Assembly (NCBI RefSeq): GCF_003590875.1 | Contig: NZ_QYUN01000002.1 | Span: forward strand, 186,001 to 250,000 | Direction of reading: 5' to 3' | Length of the DNA stretch: 64,000 nucleotides | From: Noviherbaspirillum cavernae | GTDB taxonomy: Bacteria > Pseudomonadota > Gammaproteobacteria > Burkholderiales > Burkholderiaceae_D | Shown: positions 33,596 through 38,402 of the stretch, one piece after another | How positions within the stretch are numbered: the stretch's first letter is position 1 | Layout of the letters: every line of letters starts with the position of its first letter | Notes under the pieces: model-generated | What the model saw: only the letters and a program-made list of their open reading frames with translations | What the model was told of the DNA's origin: nothing | Database searches by the model: none | Program-made: the position numbers and the translations under genes

Positions 33596-34192
33596 TTATT
33601 TGGTGCGGCGCGTACGCAGACCCAACATGCCCAAGCCGAGTGCCGTCAGCAACATGGTGGCCGGTTCTGGTACTTGCGAGTTGACGTTGGAGAACACGAA
33701 AGTTTCGTCGTTGTAGTTCAGGTCGCCGCCCTGGGGAATATCTTCAAAGGCCACAAAAGTGCCGACAGGAATGTAAGCATCGCCGCCGAAGTTGGTGGAA
33801 TACACGTGATTGACACCATCGTAATTCAGCGACTTGTCCGAATACCACGGGCCGACATTGCCCGGCGCAAGGTTGATCATCTTGAACACCAGGGTGTCGC
33901 CGGCATTGGCGTGACCGAGGACGAGTGATTGTCCGTACACGGAGGTGTAGTTGTTCAAGCCTTGAATACCGGTTGCCACGCCATTGATCAACAAGGTTAA
34001 TTCGTTGCTGTATTGGGCGGTGGAGCCGAAGAAATAGGCGGTCACGTCGCCGGTGCTTGCCGCGGTAAAGGTGTACTGCGCGGCGTTTTGAACGCCGGGA
34101 TTCGGATACGGGATCGGACCGGCTTGTGCGACGCCTGCAAAACCGATGGCTGCTGCCATCAGCGTGGCCAAACCTATGCTTCTGAGTTTCAT
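33596..34192 (-). CDS. PEP-CTERM sorted exported protein
   Basis: A 198-residue exported protein. Residues 1-25 are a signal peptide (MKLRSIGLATLMAAAIGFAG...AQA). The C-terminus is a textbook PEP-CTERM sorting tail: VPEPATMLLTALGLGMLGLR followed by Arg residues. The passenger ends with GGDLNYNDETFVFSNV, like the DUF4114 calcium-binding-type loop. PEP-CTERM proteins are cut by exosortase and usually linked to exopolysaccharide and biofilm; no exosortase is in this window. A GGAG site precedes the ATG. A sigma-54 promoter lies about 100 bases upstream. Confidence 0.9.
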   Translation of the reverse strand: MKLRSIGLATLMAAAIGFAGVAQAGPIPYPNPGVQNAAQYTFTAASTGDVTAYFFGSTAQYSNELTLLINGVATGIQGLNNYTSVYGQSLVLGHANAGDTLVFKMINLAPGNVGPWYSDKSLNYDGVNHVYSTNFGGDAYIPVGTFVAFEDIPQGGDLNYNDETFVFSNVNSQVPEPATMLLTALGLGMLGLRTRRTK

Positions 34193-34292
34193 GTTGCGTT
34201 TCTCCTGCGAGATGATAGACGTTGAAAATTGGAAATATTTTTTGTGCTGCTGATGCCATTCAGACAAAAATAAAATGGACAGAGGCGTATTG

Positions 34293-34308
34293 AGCAATTC
34301 ATATGCCA
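34293..34308 (-). promoter_or_regulatory. Sigma-54 (-24/-12) promoter of the PEP-CTERM gene
   Basis: On the minus strand TGGCAT-ATGAA-TTGCT matches the RpoN consensus TGGCAC-N5-TTGC(A/T) with exact GG/GC spacing. The expected start of transcription is near 34282, giving a leader of about 90 bases. The flanks are AT-rich. PEP-CTERM genes in related organisms are known to use sigma-54 with PrsR-type regulators. Confidence 0.7.
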
Positions 34309-34489
34309 AAAAGAAATATTTTTTATAATCAAACACTTATCTTCAAGATCAAGAGGCAGATCACTACTGATTGTTAATTATTTCGACAGACTGATAGTTT
34401 GCGTGCGCTCCCCTTCATTCCTGCCGGCTAGCGCTACTTTTCGACGTTGGCGGGCGCCCCGCTGGCGTATGCAAACCCTTGATTCAACG

Positions 34490-34495
34490 TATAAT
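34490..34495 (+). promoter_or_regulatory. Probable -10 box for metH
   Basis: A perfect TATAAT lies five bases before the riboswitch-like leader, placing transcription start at about 34501-34503. No good -35 hexamer is seen at 17 bases. Confidence 0.5.
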
Positions 34496-34500
34496 TTCGC

Positions 34501-34568
34501 GTGCGCCGATTTGATTTGTACAAGTCAAAACCAGCTTGCGGGCGCTTACACAAATACAGCTAAAGCGG
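34501..34568 (+). promoter_or_regulatory. SAM-II riboswitch (metH leader)
   Basis: The leader folds as a SAM-II H-type pseudoknot. P1 is GCGCC (34503-34507) with GGCGC (34541-34545). The loop opens with GATTTGA and contains an extra small hairpin (TTTGATTTGTACAAGTCAAA). The 3' tail, ACAAATACAGCTAAAGCGG, matches the conserved SAM-II tail (AUAAAUGUAGCUAAAAAGGG). P2 forms between CC-A-GCTT-GC (34531-34539) and GC-TA-AAGC-GG (34559-34568), leaving the TA bulge. SAM-II RNAs respond to S-adenosylmethionine and turn off methionine genes, which fits metH downstream. Confidence 0.82.
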
Positions 34569-34618
34569 ACATGGACTGACCCGGCCCCGCTTGCTATACG
34601 CACAGGCCGGGTTTTTTA
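34563..34618 (+). terminator. Attenuator: antiterminator and intrinsic terminator of metH
   Basis: ACCCGGCC (34579-34586) and GGCCGGGT (34605-34612) form an 8-bp stem followed by six T, an intrinsic terminator 17 bases before the metH start. AAGCGG (34563-34568), the 3' strand of the SAM-II P2 helix, can instead pair with CCGCTT (34587-34592) in the terminator loop. That pairing encloses the 5' arm and would interfere with the terminator. High SAM should favour P2 and termination; low SAM should favour read-through. Confidence 0.72.
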
Positions 34619-34634: not shown

Positions 34635-37600
34635 ATGAAACGCGACGCCATTTCCTCTACCGAATCCATCCTGCGCGACCTGCTCGCCCAACGCATCCTG
34701 ATCCTGGACGGTGCGATGGGGACGATGATCCAGCAATACAAGCTGACGGAAGAGGATTATCGCGGCGCGCGCTTCGTCGATTTTGCGCCAACCACAACCT
34801 TGGGCAAGGAATTGTTCGTCAAGGGCAACAATGAATTGCTGACGCTGACGCAGCCGCAGATCATCAGCGAAATCCACGGGCAATATCTTGCCGCCGGTGC
34901 CGACCTGATCGAGACCAATACTTTCGGCGCCACCAGCGTTGCGCAGGACGATTACCACATGGCGCACCTGGCGTACGAGATGAACGTGCAATCCGCCAGG
35001 CTGGCGCGCGCCGCATGCGACAAGTACTCGACGCCGGACAAGCCGCGTTTCGTCGCTGGCGCCTTGGGGCCGACGCCGAAGACCGCCTCGATCTCGCCCG
35101 ATGTGAACGATCCCGCCGCGCGCAACGTCACCTTCGACCAGCTGGTCACGGCCTACCTGGAGCAGACGCGCGCCCTGGTCGAGGGCGGCGCCGACGTGCT
35201 GCTGGTCGAGACGATCTTCGATACCTTGAACTGCAAGGCCGCGCTGTTCGCCATCGACACCTTCTTCGAGGAAACCGGCACGCGTTTGCCGATCATGATT
35301 TCCGGCACCGTGACCGATGCATCCGGCCGCATCCTGTCGGGCCAGACCGTGCCGGCGTTCTGGCATTCGGTGCGGCACGCCAAGCCGCTCACGGTCGGCT
35401 TGAATTGCGCACTCGGCGCGGCCCTGATGCGCCCCTATGCGGAAGAGCTGTCGAAGATCGCCGATACCTTCGTCTGCATCTATCCGAACGCCGGTCTGCC
35501 CAACCCGATGTCGGACACCGGCTTCGATGAAACGCCGGATGTCACGTCCTCGCTACTGAAGGATTTTGCCGAGAGCGGCTTCGTCAACATCGCCGGCGGC
35601 TGCTGCGGCACGACGCCGGATCACATCAAGGCGATTGCTGACACCGTGAAGAGCATCGCGCCGCGCCGGATTCCCGAATCGACGCCGACGATGAAGCTGT
35701 CGGGCCTGGAGCCTTTCATCATCGACGACAGCTCGCTGTTCGTGAACGTCGGCGAGCGCACCAACGTCACCGGCTCGAAGGCGTTCGCGCGCATGATCCT
35801 GAACGAGCAATACGACGAGGCGCTGTCGGTCGCACGGCAGCAGGTCGAGAACGGCGCGCAGATCATCGACATCAACATGGACGAAGCGATGCTGGATTCG
35901 GTGGCGGCGATGACGCGCTTCCTGAACCTGATCGCGTCCGAGCCGGACATCGCGCGCGTGCCGATCATGGTCGACTCGTCGAAGTGGTCGGTGATTGAAG
36001 CGGGCTTGAAATGCGTGCAAGGCAAGGCGGTCGTCAACTCGATTTCGATGAAGGAAGGCGAGGAAGAATTCCTGCGTCAGGCGACGCTGTGCCACCGCTA
36101 CGGCGCGGCAGTGATCGTGATGGCCTTCGATGAAACCGGGCAGGCCGATACCTTCGCCCGCAAGATCGAAATCTGCGAGCGCGCCTACAAGTTGCTGACG
36201 GAGAAAGTCGGCTTCCCGCCGGAAGACATCATCTTCGACCCGAACATCTTCGCGGTCGCGACCGGCATCGAGGAACACAACAACTACGCGGTGGATTTCA
36301 TCAACGCCACGCGCTGGATACACGAAAACCTGCCGCACGCGAAGATCAGCGGTGGCGTGTCGAACGTCAGTTTCTCCTTCCGCGGCAACGATCCGGCACG
36401 CGAGGCGATCCACACTGTCTTCTTGTACCACGCGATCAAGGCCGGCATGACCATGGGCATCGTCAACGCCGGCATGGTCGGCGTGTATGACGATCTCGAT
36501 CCCGAGCTGCGCGAGCGCGTCGAAGATGTCGTTCTCAATCGGCGCGATGATGCGACCGAGCGCATGATCGAATTTGCCGGCACGCTGAAAGCCGGTGGCA
36601 AGAAGGAAGAACAGAGCCTCGAATGGCGCAATGCTCCGGTCGAGAAGCGCCTCGCGCATGCGCTGGTGCACGGCATCACGCAGTGGATCGTGGAGGACAC
36701 CGAAGAAGCGCGTGTGCAAGTGCTCAACAGCGGCGGTCGTCCGATCCATGTGATCGAAGGGCCGCTGATGGACGGCATGAATGTCGTCGGCGACCTGTTT
36801 GGACAGGGCAAGATGTTCTTGCCGCAGGTGGTCAAGTCGGCGCGTGTGATGAAGCAGGCTGTTGCGCATCTGATTCCCTACATCGAGGAAGAAAAGCTGC
36901 GCGAAGAGCAGCGCACCGGCATCGCCAGCAAGGCGAAAGGCAAGATCGTGATCGCCACGGTCAAGGGCGACGTGCATGACATCGGCAAGAACATCGTGTC
37001 GGTCGTCCTTCAGTGCAACAACTTCGAAGTGATCAACATGGGCGTGATGGTGCCATGTTCGGAAATCCTCGCGAAAGCGAAGGCGGAGAACGCCGACATC
37101 ATCGGCTTGTCCGGCCTGATCACGCCTTCGCTGGAAGAAATGGCCTACGTCGCGAAGGAGATGCAGCGCGACGAGCACTTCCGCATGCTGAAGATTCCGC
37201 TCATGATTGGTGGCGCGACCACCAGCCGCGCGCATACCGCCGTCAAGATCGCGCCGAACTACGAAGGGCCGGTGATCTACGTGCCGGACGCTTCGCGCTC
37301 GGTGTCGGTGGCGCAATCCCTGCTGACGCCGGAACAACGCGCGCAGTACGTCGAAGAAATCGCGACCGACTACGAACGCATCCGCGAGCAGCATGCGAAC
37401 AAGAAGGTGGCGCCGACCATCCCGCTGGCGCAAGCGCGTGCGAACAAGATGAAGCTCGATTTCACCGGTGCGATGGCGCCCGTGAAGCCGAAGTTCATCG
37501 GCCGCCGCGTCTTCAAGAACTACGATCTCGCCACCTTGGCGGAGTACATCGACTGGGGTCCGTTCTTCCAGACCTGGGACTTGGCCGGGCCGTTTCCCGC

Positions 37601-38402
37601 GATCCTGAAGGACGAGGTCGTCGGCGAGCAGGCAAGCAAGGTCTACGAAGAAGGTCGCGCTCTGCTGAAGAAACTGATCGATGGCCGCTGGCTGACGGCC
37701 AACGGCGTGGTCGCGCTGCTGCCGGCCAACAGTGTCAACGATGACGATATCGAGATCTACACCGACGAGACACGCAGCGAAGTGGCGTTCACCTATTACG
37801 GCGTGCGCCAGCAAACGGCCAAGCCGGTGATCGATGGCGTGGCGCGGCCGAACCAGTGTCTGGCGGACTTCATCGCGCCGAAGTCATCCGGCGTCGTCGA
37901 TTACATCGGCCTGTTCGCCGTCACCGCCGGCATCGGCATCGAGAAGCATGAAAAACGCTTCGAAGATGCGCACGACGATTACAGCAGCATCATGCTGAAG
38001 TCCTTGGCGGATCGCCTGGCCGAAGCCTTCGCCGAGCATTTGCACGAGCGCGTGCGCAAGGATCTGTGGGGCTTTGCACCGGATGAAGCATTGAGCAACG
38101 ACGAGCTGATCAAAGAAGCTTACAGCGGCATCCGTCCGGCGTCCGGCTACCCCGCGTGCCCGGAACACACGGTCAAGGTCGACGCGTTCAAACTGATGCA
38201 ATGCGAAGAGATCGGCATGCAGGTGACGGAATCCTTCGCCATGTTCCCCGGGGCGTCGGTGTCCGGCTTCTACCTCGCACACCCGGAATCGAAGTACTTC
38301 GTGGTCGGCAAGATCGGTGAGGATCAGGTTACCGACATGGCTGAGCGGCGTGGCGTGAGCAAGGAAGATGTGGAGCGCTGGCTGGCGCCTAATCTGTCGT
38401 GA
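34635..38402 (+). CDS. metH: Cobalamin-dependent methionine synthase
   Basis: Full-length single-chain MetH of 1255 residues. Domain order: homocysteine-binding barrel with zinc Cys258 and Cys323/Cys324 (GGCCGTTP); folate-binding barrel ([18 protein letters not shown]); B12 cap and Rossmann domain with axial His781 in [10 protein letters not shown]; and the SAM-binding activation domain ([12 protein letters not shown]). It methylates homocysteine with 5-methyltetrahydrofolate. The start at 34635 follows the riboswitch and attenuator; the frame upstream is leader sequence. The SAM-sensing leader and the SAM-dependent reactivation domain both link it to SAM supply. Confidence 0.97.

Follow-up and report, generated by a model that had tools for sequence, protein, structure and literature searches.

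A proposed SAM-II riboswitch variant upstream of metH in Noviherbaspirillum cavernae and its relatives among the Burkholderiales

The leader of the methionine synthase gene metH in Noviherbaspirillum cavernae very probably harbours a variant of the SAM-II riboswitch, which, judged from its sequence, would shut metH off by premature transcription termination at high S-adenosylmethionine (SAM). The parts of the element, their conservation, the gene context, a terminator and a complementary antiterminator strand were established by sequence and comparison. The whole stretch of DNA analysed, 64 kb in length, is here called the window.

The metH leader and its parts

Along the plus strand of the window the order is TATAAT, P1, GATTT, a hairpin in the P1 loop (L1), CCAGCTTGC, a linker, GCTAAAGCGG, the terminator and metH. 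The assigned features are as follows, with the basis of each assignment in brackets.

34490-34495, plus strand: TATAAT, likely −10 box (read in the sequence; just 5′ of P1 in 15 of 15 leaders of the genus)
34503-34507, plus strand: P1 5′ strand, GCGCC (sequence; P1 covariation in the wider family)
34508-34512, plus strand: GATTT, third strand of the SAM-II triplex, with U10-U12 at 34510-34512 (invariant in 37 of 37 rows of alignment A3)
34510-34529, plus strand: extra L1 hairpin of 8 bp, 34510-34517 with 34522-34529, pairing U10-U12 (fold and relatives)
34531-34539, plus strand: 5′ strand of the P2 pseudoknot, CCAGCTTGC (sequence and alignments)
34541-34545, plus strand: P1 3′ strand, GGCGC (sequence)
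34546-34558, plus strand: L3 linker with AAATAC, short in the window copy (sequence and leaders of the genus)
34559-34568, plus strand: P2 3′ strand and ligand-binding tail, GCTAAAGCGG, with U44 at 34561 (conserved U44 and A47 columns)
34578-34617, plus strand: intrinsic terminator, 9-bp stem 34578-34586/34605-34613 and T-run 34612-34617 (RNAfold)
34587-34595, plus strand: antiterminator 3′ strand, CCGCTTGCT, inside the apical part of the terminator and complementing the tail AAGCGG at 34563-34568
34635-38402, plus strand: metH, cobalamin-dependent methionine synthase, 1255 aa (Pfam PF02965, PF02574, PF00809, PF02607 and PF02310)

An earlier note on this DNA had read the metH leader as a SAM-II-like pseudoknot and the genome as one of the Burkholderiales, and this was borne out. 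The nearest named MetH is that of Noviherbaspirillum humi (90% identity), whose genome falls within the same genus group. The 5-bp P1, the GATTT loop start, the SAM-II-like tail and the extra P1-loop hairpin were all found in place, the last with counterparts in long-loop relatives. The proposed end at 34568 stands, but the start is moved from 34501 to 34503, where the core begins. The P2 strands had also been read correctly, but not the TA bulge: by the SAM-II and SAM-V structures A45 and A46 pair with U21 and U20, which leaves U44 bulged, and the pairing with a TA bulge represents an alternative register. All pocket positions in the window copy (U10-U12, U20, U21, U44 and A45-A47) are those of SAM-II. 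The SAM-II position numbers, taken in part from PMC6061858, are presumed to correspond to the window bases given here.

An ordered signature, defined as GATTT preceded by a 5-nt strand, the exact complement of that strand after TTGC, and finally GCTAAA, occurred once in the window (both strands) and in none of 100 Markov shuffles. The L3 linker is longer in other leaders of the genus, with possible hairpins. Given the position of TATAAT, the 5′ end of the transcript would fall close to the first base of P1. A consensus promoter scanner reported no −35/−10 pair for the metH leader. TTGAT was seen shortly 5′ of TATAAT in 13 of the 15 metH leaders of the genus (34479-34495 in the window); in the window the spacing between TTGATT and TATAAT is 5 nt, less than a −35 box would need, and TTGATT may therefore be a regulator site. 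The terminator is absent from the output of the consensus scanner because the loop limit of that program is 8. An ORF with a TTG start at 34536 was rejected, as it prolongs the metH frame upstream across the leader; the 15 genus copies begin with ATGAA.CG, in agreement with a start at 34635. Upstream, an ORF on the minus strand (33596-34336), opposite in direction to metH, ends in VPEPATMLLTALGLGMLGLRTRRTK, by reading a PEP-CTERM-like sorting tail.

Distribution, gene context and relation to SAM-II

The element was found before metH in 15 of 15 Noviherbaspirillum genomes examined (the metH match came in two pieces in G141 and G197), and in all 15 leaders TATAAT lies just 5′ of it and a CCCGG..CCGGGTTTTTT terminator is present. 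A survey of metH leaders in Oxalobacteraceae, suggested by the earlier note, thus found the element in every genome of the genus examined but only patchily in the family. A model built from 37 leaders, R1, detected it before metH in 9 of the 80 nearest MetH loci (E ≤ 6.4e-18; two of the 80 lacked a metH start): those of N. humi, N. pedocola, two Undibacterium, Oxalicibacterium, a Herminiimonas MAG, an Oxalobacteraceae MAG, a MAG labelled Polynucleobacter and a Rhodocyclaceae MAG. Seven of these nine metH leaders belonged to the R1 training set, and two (L040 and L042) lay outside it. The other 71 loci, for example in Massilia, Janthinobacterium and Duganella, gave no R1 match near that level, so that control of metH by the element would be patchy even in Oxalobacteraceae. 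Beyond metH, R1 matched 293 of 399 genomes of the order, in 131 of 159 genera (E ≤ 0.01), and 174 of 369 genomes of the class (E ≤ 0.001). A second model, R3, matched a metK-type element in 291 of the 399 order genomes (E ≤ 0.01); the two models match each other's targets at lower scores, and their genome counts overlap.

The next assigned downstream ORF was MetX, MetH, MetK or a Cys/Met PLP enzyme in 44 of 60 loci (28 of 30 for R1, 16 of 30 for R3), as assigned by blastp against reference proteins of the window genome on the downstream side and the element strand only. The remaining 16 loci comprised eight without a parsed element and eight with an unassigned ORF. This context bears on the proposal that the functional transcript is the opposite strand, a small RNA of RF02424 (Bp2_287), which occupies the same site on the other strand and is filed as an sRNA (PMC3521395). 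RF02424 does match the minus strand of the window at 34521-34595 (14.2 bits, cut-off 70) and that of relatives with up to 37.7 bits. The tail, the terminator T-run and metH all lie on the plus strand, however, as does, in the 44 loci and on the one side and strand covered, the methionine-pathway ORF relative to the element; moreover, RF02424 looks like the reverse complement of the riboswitch, and PMC3521395 itself suggests a cis element upstream of methionine genes. We regard an antisense sRNA as scarcely credible, and the strand of RF02424 in Rfam may be wrong. Further minus-strand matches of RF02424 were recorded at L035 1465-1624 and L010 1478-1618.

Three R1 elements (L229, L230 and L231) precede an ABC ATPase gene. 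The ATPases of L229 and L230 carry a NIL domain and are metN-like, that of L230 scoring best against MetN below the cut-off (359 of 499.7); judged by sequence, these two elements possibly control a methionine importer in response to SAM.

No Rfam RNA family was detected in the 64-kb window at gathering cut-offs. In a permissive search, the full length of the SAM_alpha model (RF00521) could be aligned to 34493-34584; the score was 14.8 bits, where the cut-off is 36, and E was 1.87 for the genome as a whole. Since 14 of 14 control genomes also matched SAM_alpha at E ≤ 10, the window score is at chance level, and the Rfam score alone proves nothing. A score below threshold had been named beforehand, in the earlier note, as speaking against SAM-II, and the window copy did score below it; we do not accept this as a refutation, because relatives bridge the distance to the cut-off. 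The metH leader L087 reached 36.2 bits, and 8 of 20 non-metH sources, chosen from the top R1 matches, exceeded the cut-off (36.1-44.3 bits), as did none of 20 further metH loci. Judged by sequence, short-loop family members above the cut-off are a bridge from the window element to SAM-II. In the bacterial family RF00521 was above its cut-off in 2 of 195 genomes, scores of 25-36 bits being common among the matches listed; set beside the R1 matches in 293 of 399 order genomes, a different and overlapping set, this suggests that the Rfam cut-off misses most copies here. RF01726 (SAM-II long loops) and RF01826 (SAM-V) were ruled out as better homes, the former matching nothing at the window element and the latter nothing anywhere in the genome at E ≤ 10. 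Matches of RAGATH-13, mir-7371, Ysr209 and Flavo-1 in the window were at chance level (E 2.2-8.6). The traits by which SAM-II is recognised were found: P1 closed over a GAUUU strand, P2 formed between the P1 loop and the 3′ tail, the ligand-contact letters, and a site 5′ of methionine or SAM genes with a terminator or RBS platform.

Among the contact positions, all 109 rows of alignment A6 have U44 and all but one have A47; when A5 and A6, which share 17 elements, were pooled, U44 was present in 202 and A47 in 201 of 202 rows. In A5 (88 distinct rows) 97.4% of cells pair; the value was 92.0% for shuffled alignments and did not exceed 46% when the structure was slid. At the first pair of P1, A5 has CG in 37 rows, GC in 29, UA in 17, AU in 2, UG in 2 and other in 1; by this alignment P1 is covarying in the wider family. 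Pair 24-41 was GC in 51 rows, AU in 12, GU in 4 and other in 18, the last being GG and GA, as found in type-1 rows, in which C40 is an alternative partner for position 24. Covariation in P2 was confined to this 24-41 extension, in the metK type. The further pair types of A5 (9) were no better than shuffles, 269 of 500 of which reach 9. In A6 (109 rows, mostly type 1) 99.2% of cells pair, with 5 P1 cells changed on both sides and 2 unpaired; slides of +2 and +3 gave higher covariation scores (0.030 and 0.021) than the structure (0.017). The six core P2 pairs were 98.9% paired over the 109 rows, an almost frozen core, and pair 19-48 was CG in 103 rows and A.A in 5, among them both Undibacterium leaders. 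The aligned metH leaders (A1 and A3) show no variation in P1 and hardly any in the P2 core, with almost no covariation. The covariation that the earlier note had asked for was accordingly seen for P1 in the wider family but not in metH leaders, where an unvarying P1 can give no such signal. P1, but not P2, had been used in fitting the alignments, and since its core is nearly invariant in both wide sets (A5 and A6), P2 rests mainly on complementarity and conservation rather than on covariation.

These data also bear on the reading that the leader is a terminator-attenuator without a ligand, or is controlled by a protein or a leader peptide, its likeness to the pseudoknot being incidental. Such a reading would agree with the sub-threshold Rfam score and the downstream terminator, but we judge it highly improbable given that the SAM-II contacts are conserved family-wide, that P1 and pair 24-41 covary, and that sister copies exceed the Rfam cut-off.

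Expression platform and the L1 hairpin

A stable hairpin with T4 within 95 nt followed 93 of 108 R1-type rows, compared with 98 of 1090 random stretches from the same sources (one of the 109 A6 rows was dropped from the terminator and antiterminator counts). The 15 rows without a terminator include all nine second-of-tandem elements in the set. The longest complement of the tail before the T-run averaged 5.3 nt (3.6 nt when shuffled), and reached p ≤ 0.05 in 50 of 93 rows, among them the window (AAGCGG/CCGCTT, p = 0.025), and in 12 of the 15 leaders of the genus (L039 standing for the identical L122). The other 43 rows missed this level, including the metH leaders of Undibacterium, Oxalicibacterium and Herminiimonas and 3 of the 15 genus leaders; as the rows are related, these tests are not independent. 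An exact tail complement of 5-8 nt lies after the left arm of the terminator in all 15 metH leaders of the genus.

For a transcript through CCGCTT, the structure predicted by RNAfold (−25.3 kcal/mol) contains P1 and the L1 hairpin together with an antiterminator of 9 bp that has a UA bulge; with both P2 strands kept free, the energy was −13.9 kcal/mol. In the full-length fold the terminator forms and P1 does not; P1 is also absent from the unconstrained fold of a transcript ending at the tail, since the program cannot model pseudoknots, and this is at the same time a caution.

From these parts we infer that SAM is bound, in what order the steps follow, in which direction metH is controlled and what the L1 hairpin does. 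Transcription would start at or just 5′ of P1. Without SAM, the tail AGC-UA-AAGCGG would pair with the downstream CCGCUUGCU, which resembles the P2 5′ strand (..GCUUGC), and the antiterminator would hold the left arm of the terminator in its loop, so that metH is read. SAM would be bound in the major groove of P2, with contacts to U10-U12, U20-U21 and U44-A47; the tail would then be held in the pseudoknot, the terminator at 34578-34617 would form, and transcription would stop with metH off. In Sinorhizobium, the SAM-II leaders of metZ and metA are reported to give rising sRNAs and falling mRNAs at high SAM (PMC9373788).

The L1 hairpin, folded alone, has 7 bp (−3.5 kcal/mol), and 8 bp in the fold of the leader; the other metH leaders of the genus carry an equivalent hairpin of 7-8 bp. 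In long-loop elements (n = 23) the mean loop stem was 6.65 bp compared with 3.11 bp in shuffles, and in short-loop elements (n = 78) nothing was seen (1.9 and 2.0). In 21 of these 23 long-loop elements, all 15 of the genus included, U10 is the first base of the hairpin. The 20 long-loop metH rows of A6 have a hairpin of 5-8 bp, starting at U10 in 19 and one base later in L045; short-loop metH leaders (Undibacterium, L087 and others) are without it. According to the folds, the triplex-strand uridines U10-U12 would be paired in the free RNA of long-loop metH leaders. In SAM-V, which binds SAM in almost the same way, the corresponding uridines make hydrogen bonds to the U that contacts the ligand, lie beside the sulfonium or take part in a triple (PMC6061858). 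As the L1 hairpin pairs U10-U12, hairpin and ligand-bound triplex should be in competition, and a higher level of SAM should be needed.

The same pairing could instead mean that a SAM-II-like fold, with its pocket altered by the L1 hairpin or other changes, binds another ligand such as S-adenosylhomocysteine (SAH) or a SAM-related compound. In the metK sister type of this genome U10 is replaced by G, and metH is listed among the targets of the SAH riboswitch in Comamonadaceae (PMC4239095). Every pocket position of the window copy nevertheless matches SAM-II, which discriminates more than 1000-fold against SAH (PMC1273637), and the family precedes metX, sulfhydrylase-type genes and metH, a SAM-feedback set. 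Another ligand is therefore considered unlikely, and SAM remains the proposed effector.

Sister elements and known systems

The window genome contains four elements, before metX, metH, a gene of the cystathionine gamma-synthase family and metK. The three outside the metH leader are:

C2:259912: element before metX, RF00521 score 24 bits
Locus L006: element before the cystathionine gamma-synthase family gene
L004 1511-1567 (G000:C2:365351-365407): element before metK, predicted translational, SAM-II-like, U10 replaced by G

MetX was identified as the NCBIfam homoserine O-succinyltransferase MetX (690 bits, cut-off 560) and MetK as TIGR01034. The protein after the L006 element belongs to the cystathionine gamma-synthase family PRK05939 (733.8 bits, cut-off 555); its assignment as MetZ was rejected, the O-succinylhomoserine sulfhydrylase model scoring 302.6 of 522, and MetZ assignments behind our gene-context counts thus mean a Cys/Met PLP enzyme like that of L006.

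The 15 metK leaders of the genus (L136-L150) carry CCGCCGAGTTAA..GACAACTTGCGAGGCGG..AAATnTCGCTAAAGCGTCGCAGGC, and the stretch around the metK start codon (typically GAGCCTGCGATG) complements the last part, AAATnTCGCTAAAGCGTCGCAGGC, as an anti-Shine-Dalgarno stem. The stem measures 8-10 nt in the 12 of 15 leaders parsed by script and was found by eye in L142, L149 and L150, with one G-U pair in L150; no T5 run follows the metK elements in these 15 leaders. From sequence, the metK sister type would thus act by translational control. G was present at position 10 in 53 of 55 metK copies among type-2 rows of A5 and in 4 of 15 type-2 copies before an operon of a small ORF and a MATE gene, counts biased by a training set of mostly metK leaders of one genus (12 genus copies counted) and excluding a further metK row, L266 (GAGTT), outside the type-2 label. 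None of 20 metK-type loci reached any Rfam cut-off.

Tandem SAM-II elements, a terminator type followed by an RBS type, were observed in L161, L196, L199, L203, L206, L209, L259, L262, L263, L269 and L277, before an ORF of about 100 aa starting MYDC or MFDC. The next gene encodes a MATE efflux protein, by Pfam in L196, L199, L203 and L206 and by reading elsewhere where visible; the two small ORFs submitted to Pfam (L196 and L203) had no match. Another tandem (L031 1385-1442 and 1512-1565, minus strand) precedes cysK (TIGR01139 above cut-off) and then, by reading, a Cys/Met-metabolism-like ORF. Tandem pairs precede other genes in L193, L255 and L270, with an HD_4-domain protein downstream in L255. 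In L167 (plus strand) a SAM-II element at 1499-1571 lies before metK, and a SAH riboswitch at 2914-2992 (61.2 bits) lies a short way downstream, both above Rfam cut-offs. As 44 tandem SAM-II pairs, some of them terminator-then-RBS, are already reported (PMC9481103), the tandems found here are no new kind; a SAM-II/SAM-V tandem is described for Pelagibacter (PMC11508383, PMC5069961).

With SAM-II (RF00521, Corbino et al. 2005, PMC1273637) the window element shares the single P1, the P2 pseudoknot, the GAUUU strand, the GCUAAA tail, a promoter just upstream, a downstream terminator and the methionine genes. It differs from SAM-II as described there by the 8-bp P1-loop hairpin pairing U10-U12, its 14.8 of 36 bits, metH as target and a host in Oxalobacteraceae. 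As to the earlier view of SAM-II as mainly alphaproteobacterial, betaproteobacterial SAM-II is already mentioned (PMC2258182, PMC2704228), and the taxonomic surprise is smaller than had been thought. SAM-II long loops (RF01726, Weinberg et al. 2010, PMC2864571) is by name a long-loop SAM-II variant, but is listed there from Bacteroidetes and marine samples and has no match at the window element. SAM-V (RF01826, PMC6061858) is a pseudoknot triplex with an almost identical SAM pocket, and its translational control resembles that of the metK sister elements, whereas the window element uses a terminator and the SAM-V model matches nothing in the genome.

The closest described relative is the 'metXZ' element (Leyn et al. 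2014, PMC4239095), with betaproteobacterial hosts, metXW and metZ as targets, six conserved blocks, two pseudoknot pairings and a downstream terminator. In the text of that study available to us, SAM_alpha is confined to Rhizobiales and Rhodobacterales, metXZ is left without a ligand and its region 3 without a pairing partner, and no metH or metK target is named. We take region 3 as the P2 5′ strand. By hosts, genes, block layout and terminator, the metXZ element probably comprises short-loop members of the family described here. The 5′UTRs of metK, metX and metZ in Burkholderia thailandensis had been suspected to be regulatory, and PMC8814607 states that its authors confirmed this in unpublished data. 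PMC8632094 and PMC8386462 offered nothing relevant. Within the literature searched, no published SAM-II before metH, identification of metXZ as SAM-II, or metK type was found; the metH target, the loop hairpin pairing U10-U12 and the translational U10G metK type are new to that extent. The window element is thus considered a new variant with a new target, not a new class.

Tentatively, the four elements of this genome might form a graded SAM-II set (plain before metX, long-linker before the cystathionine gamma-synthase family gene, L1-locked before metH and translational with U10G before metK) with differently tuned pockets, in which the L1 hairpin would be a built-in competitor setting the SAM threshold of metH and the U10G metK type a subclass with shifted affinity or another ligand; we hold this whole scheme to be possible rather than likely. 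With four builds of one aptamer in one genome, a direct test of how aptamers are tuned to their genes becomes possible. The present analysis proposes SAM as the ligand, together with a mechanism, for the metXZ element of betaproteobacteria, where the 2014 study had left both open, and would add methionine synthase to the targets of that element.
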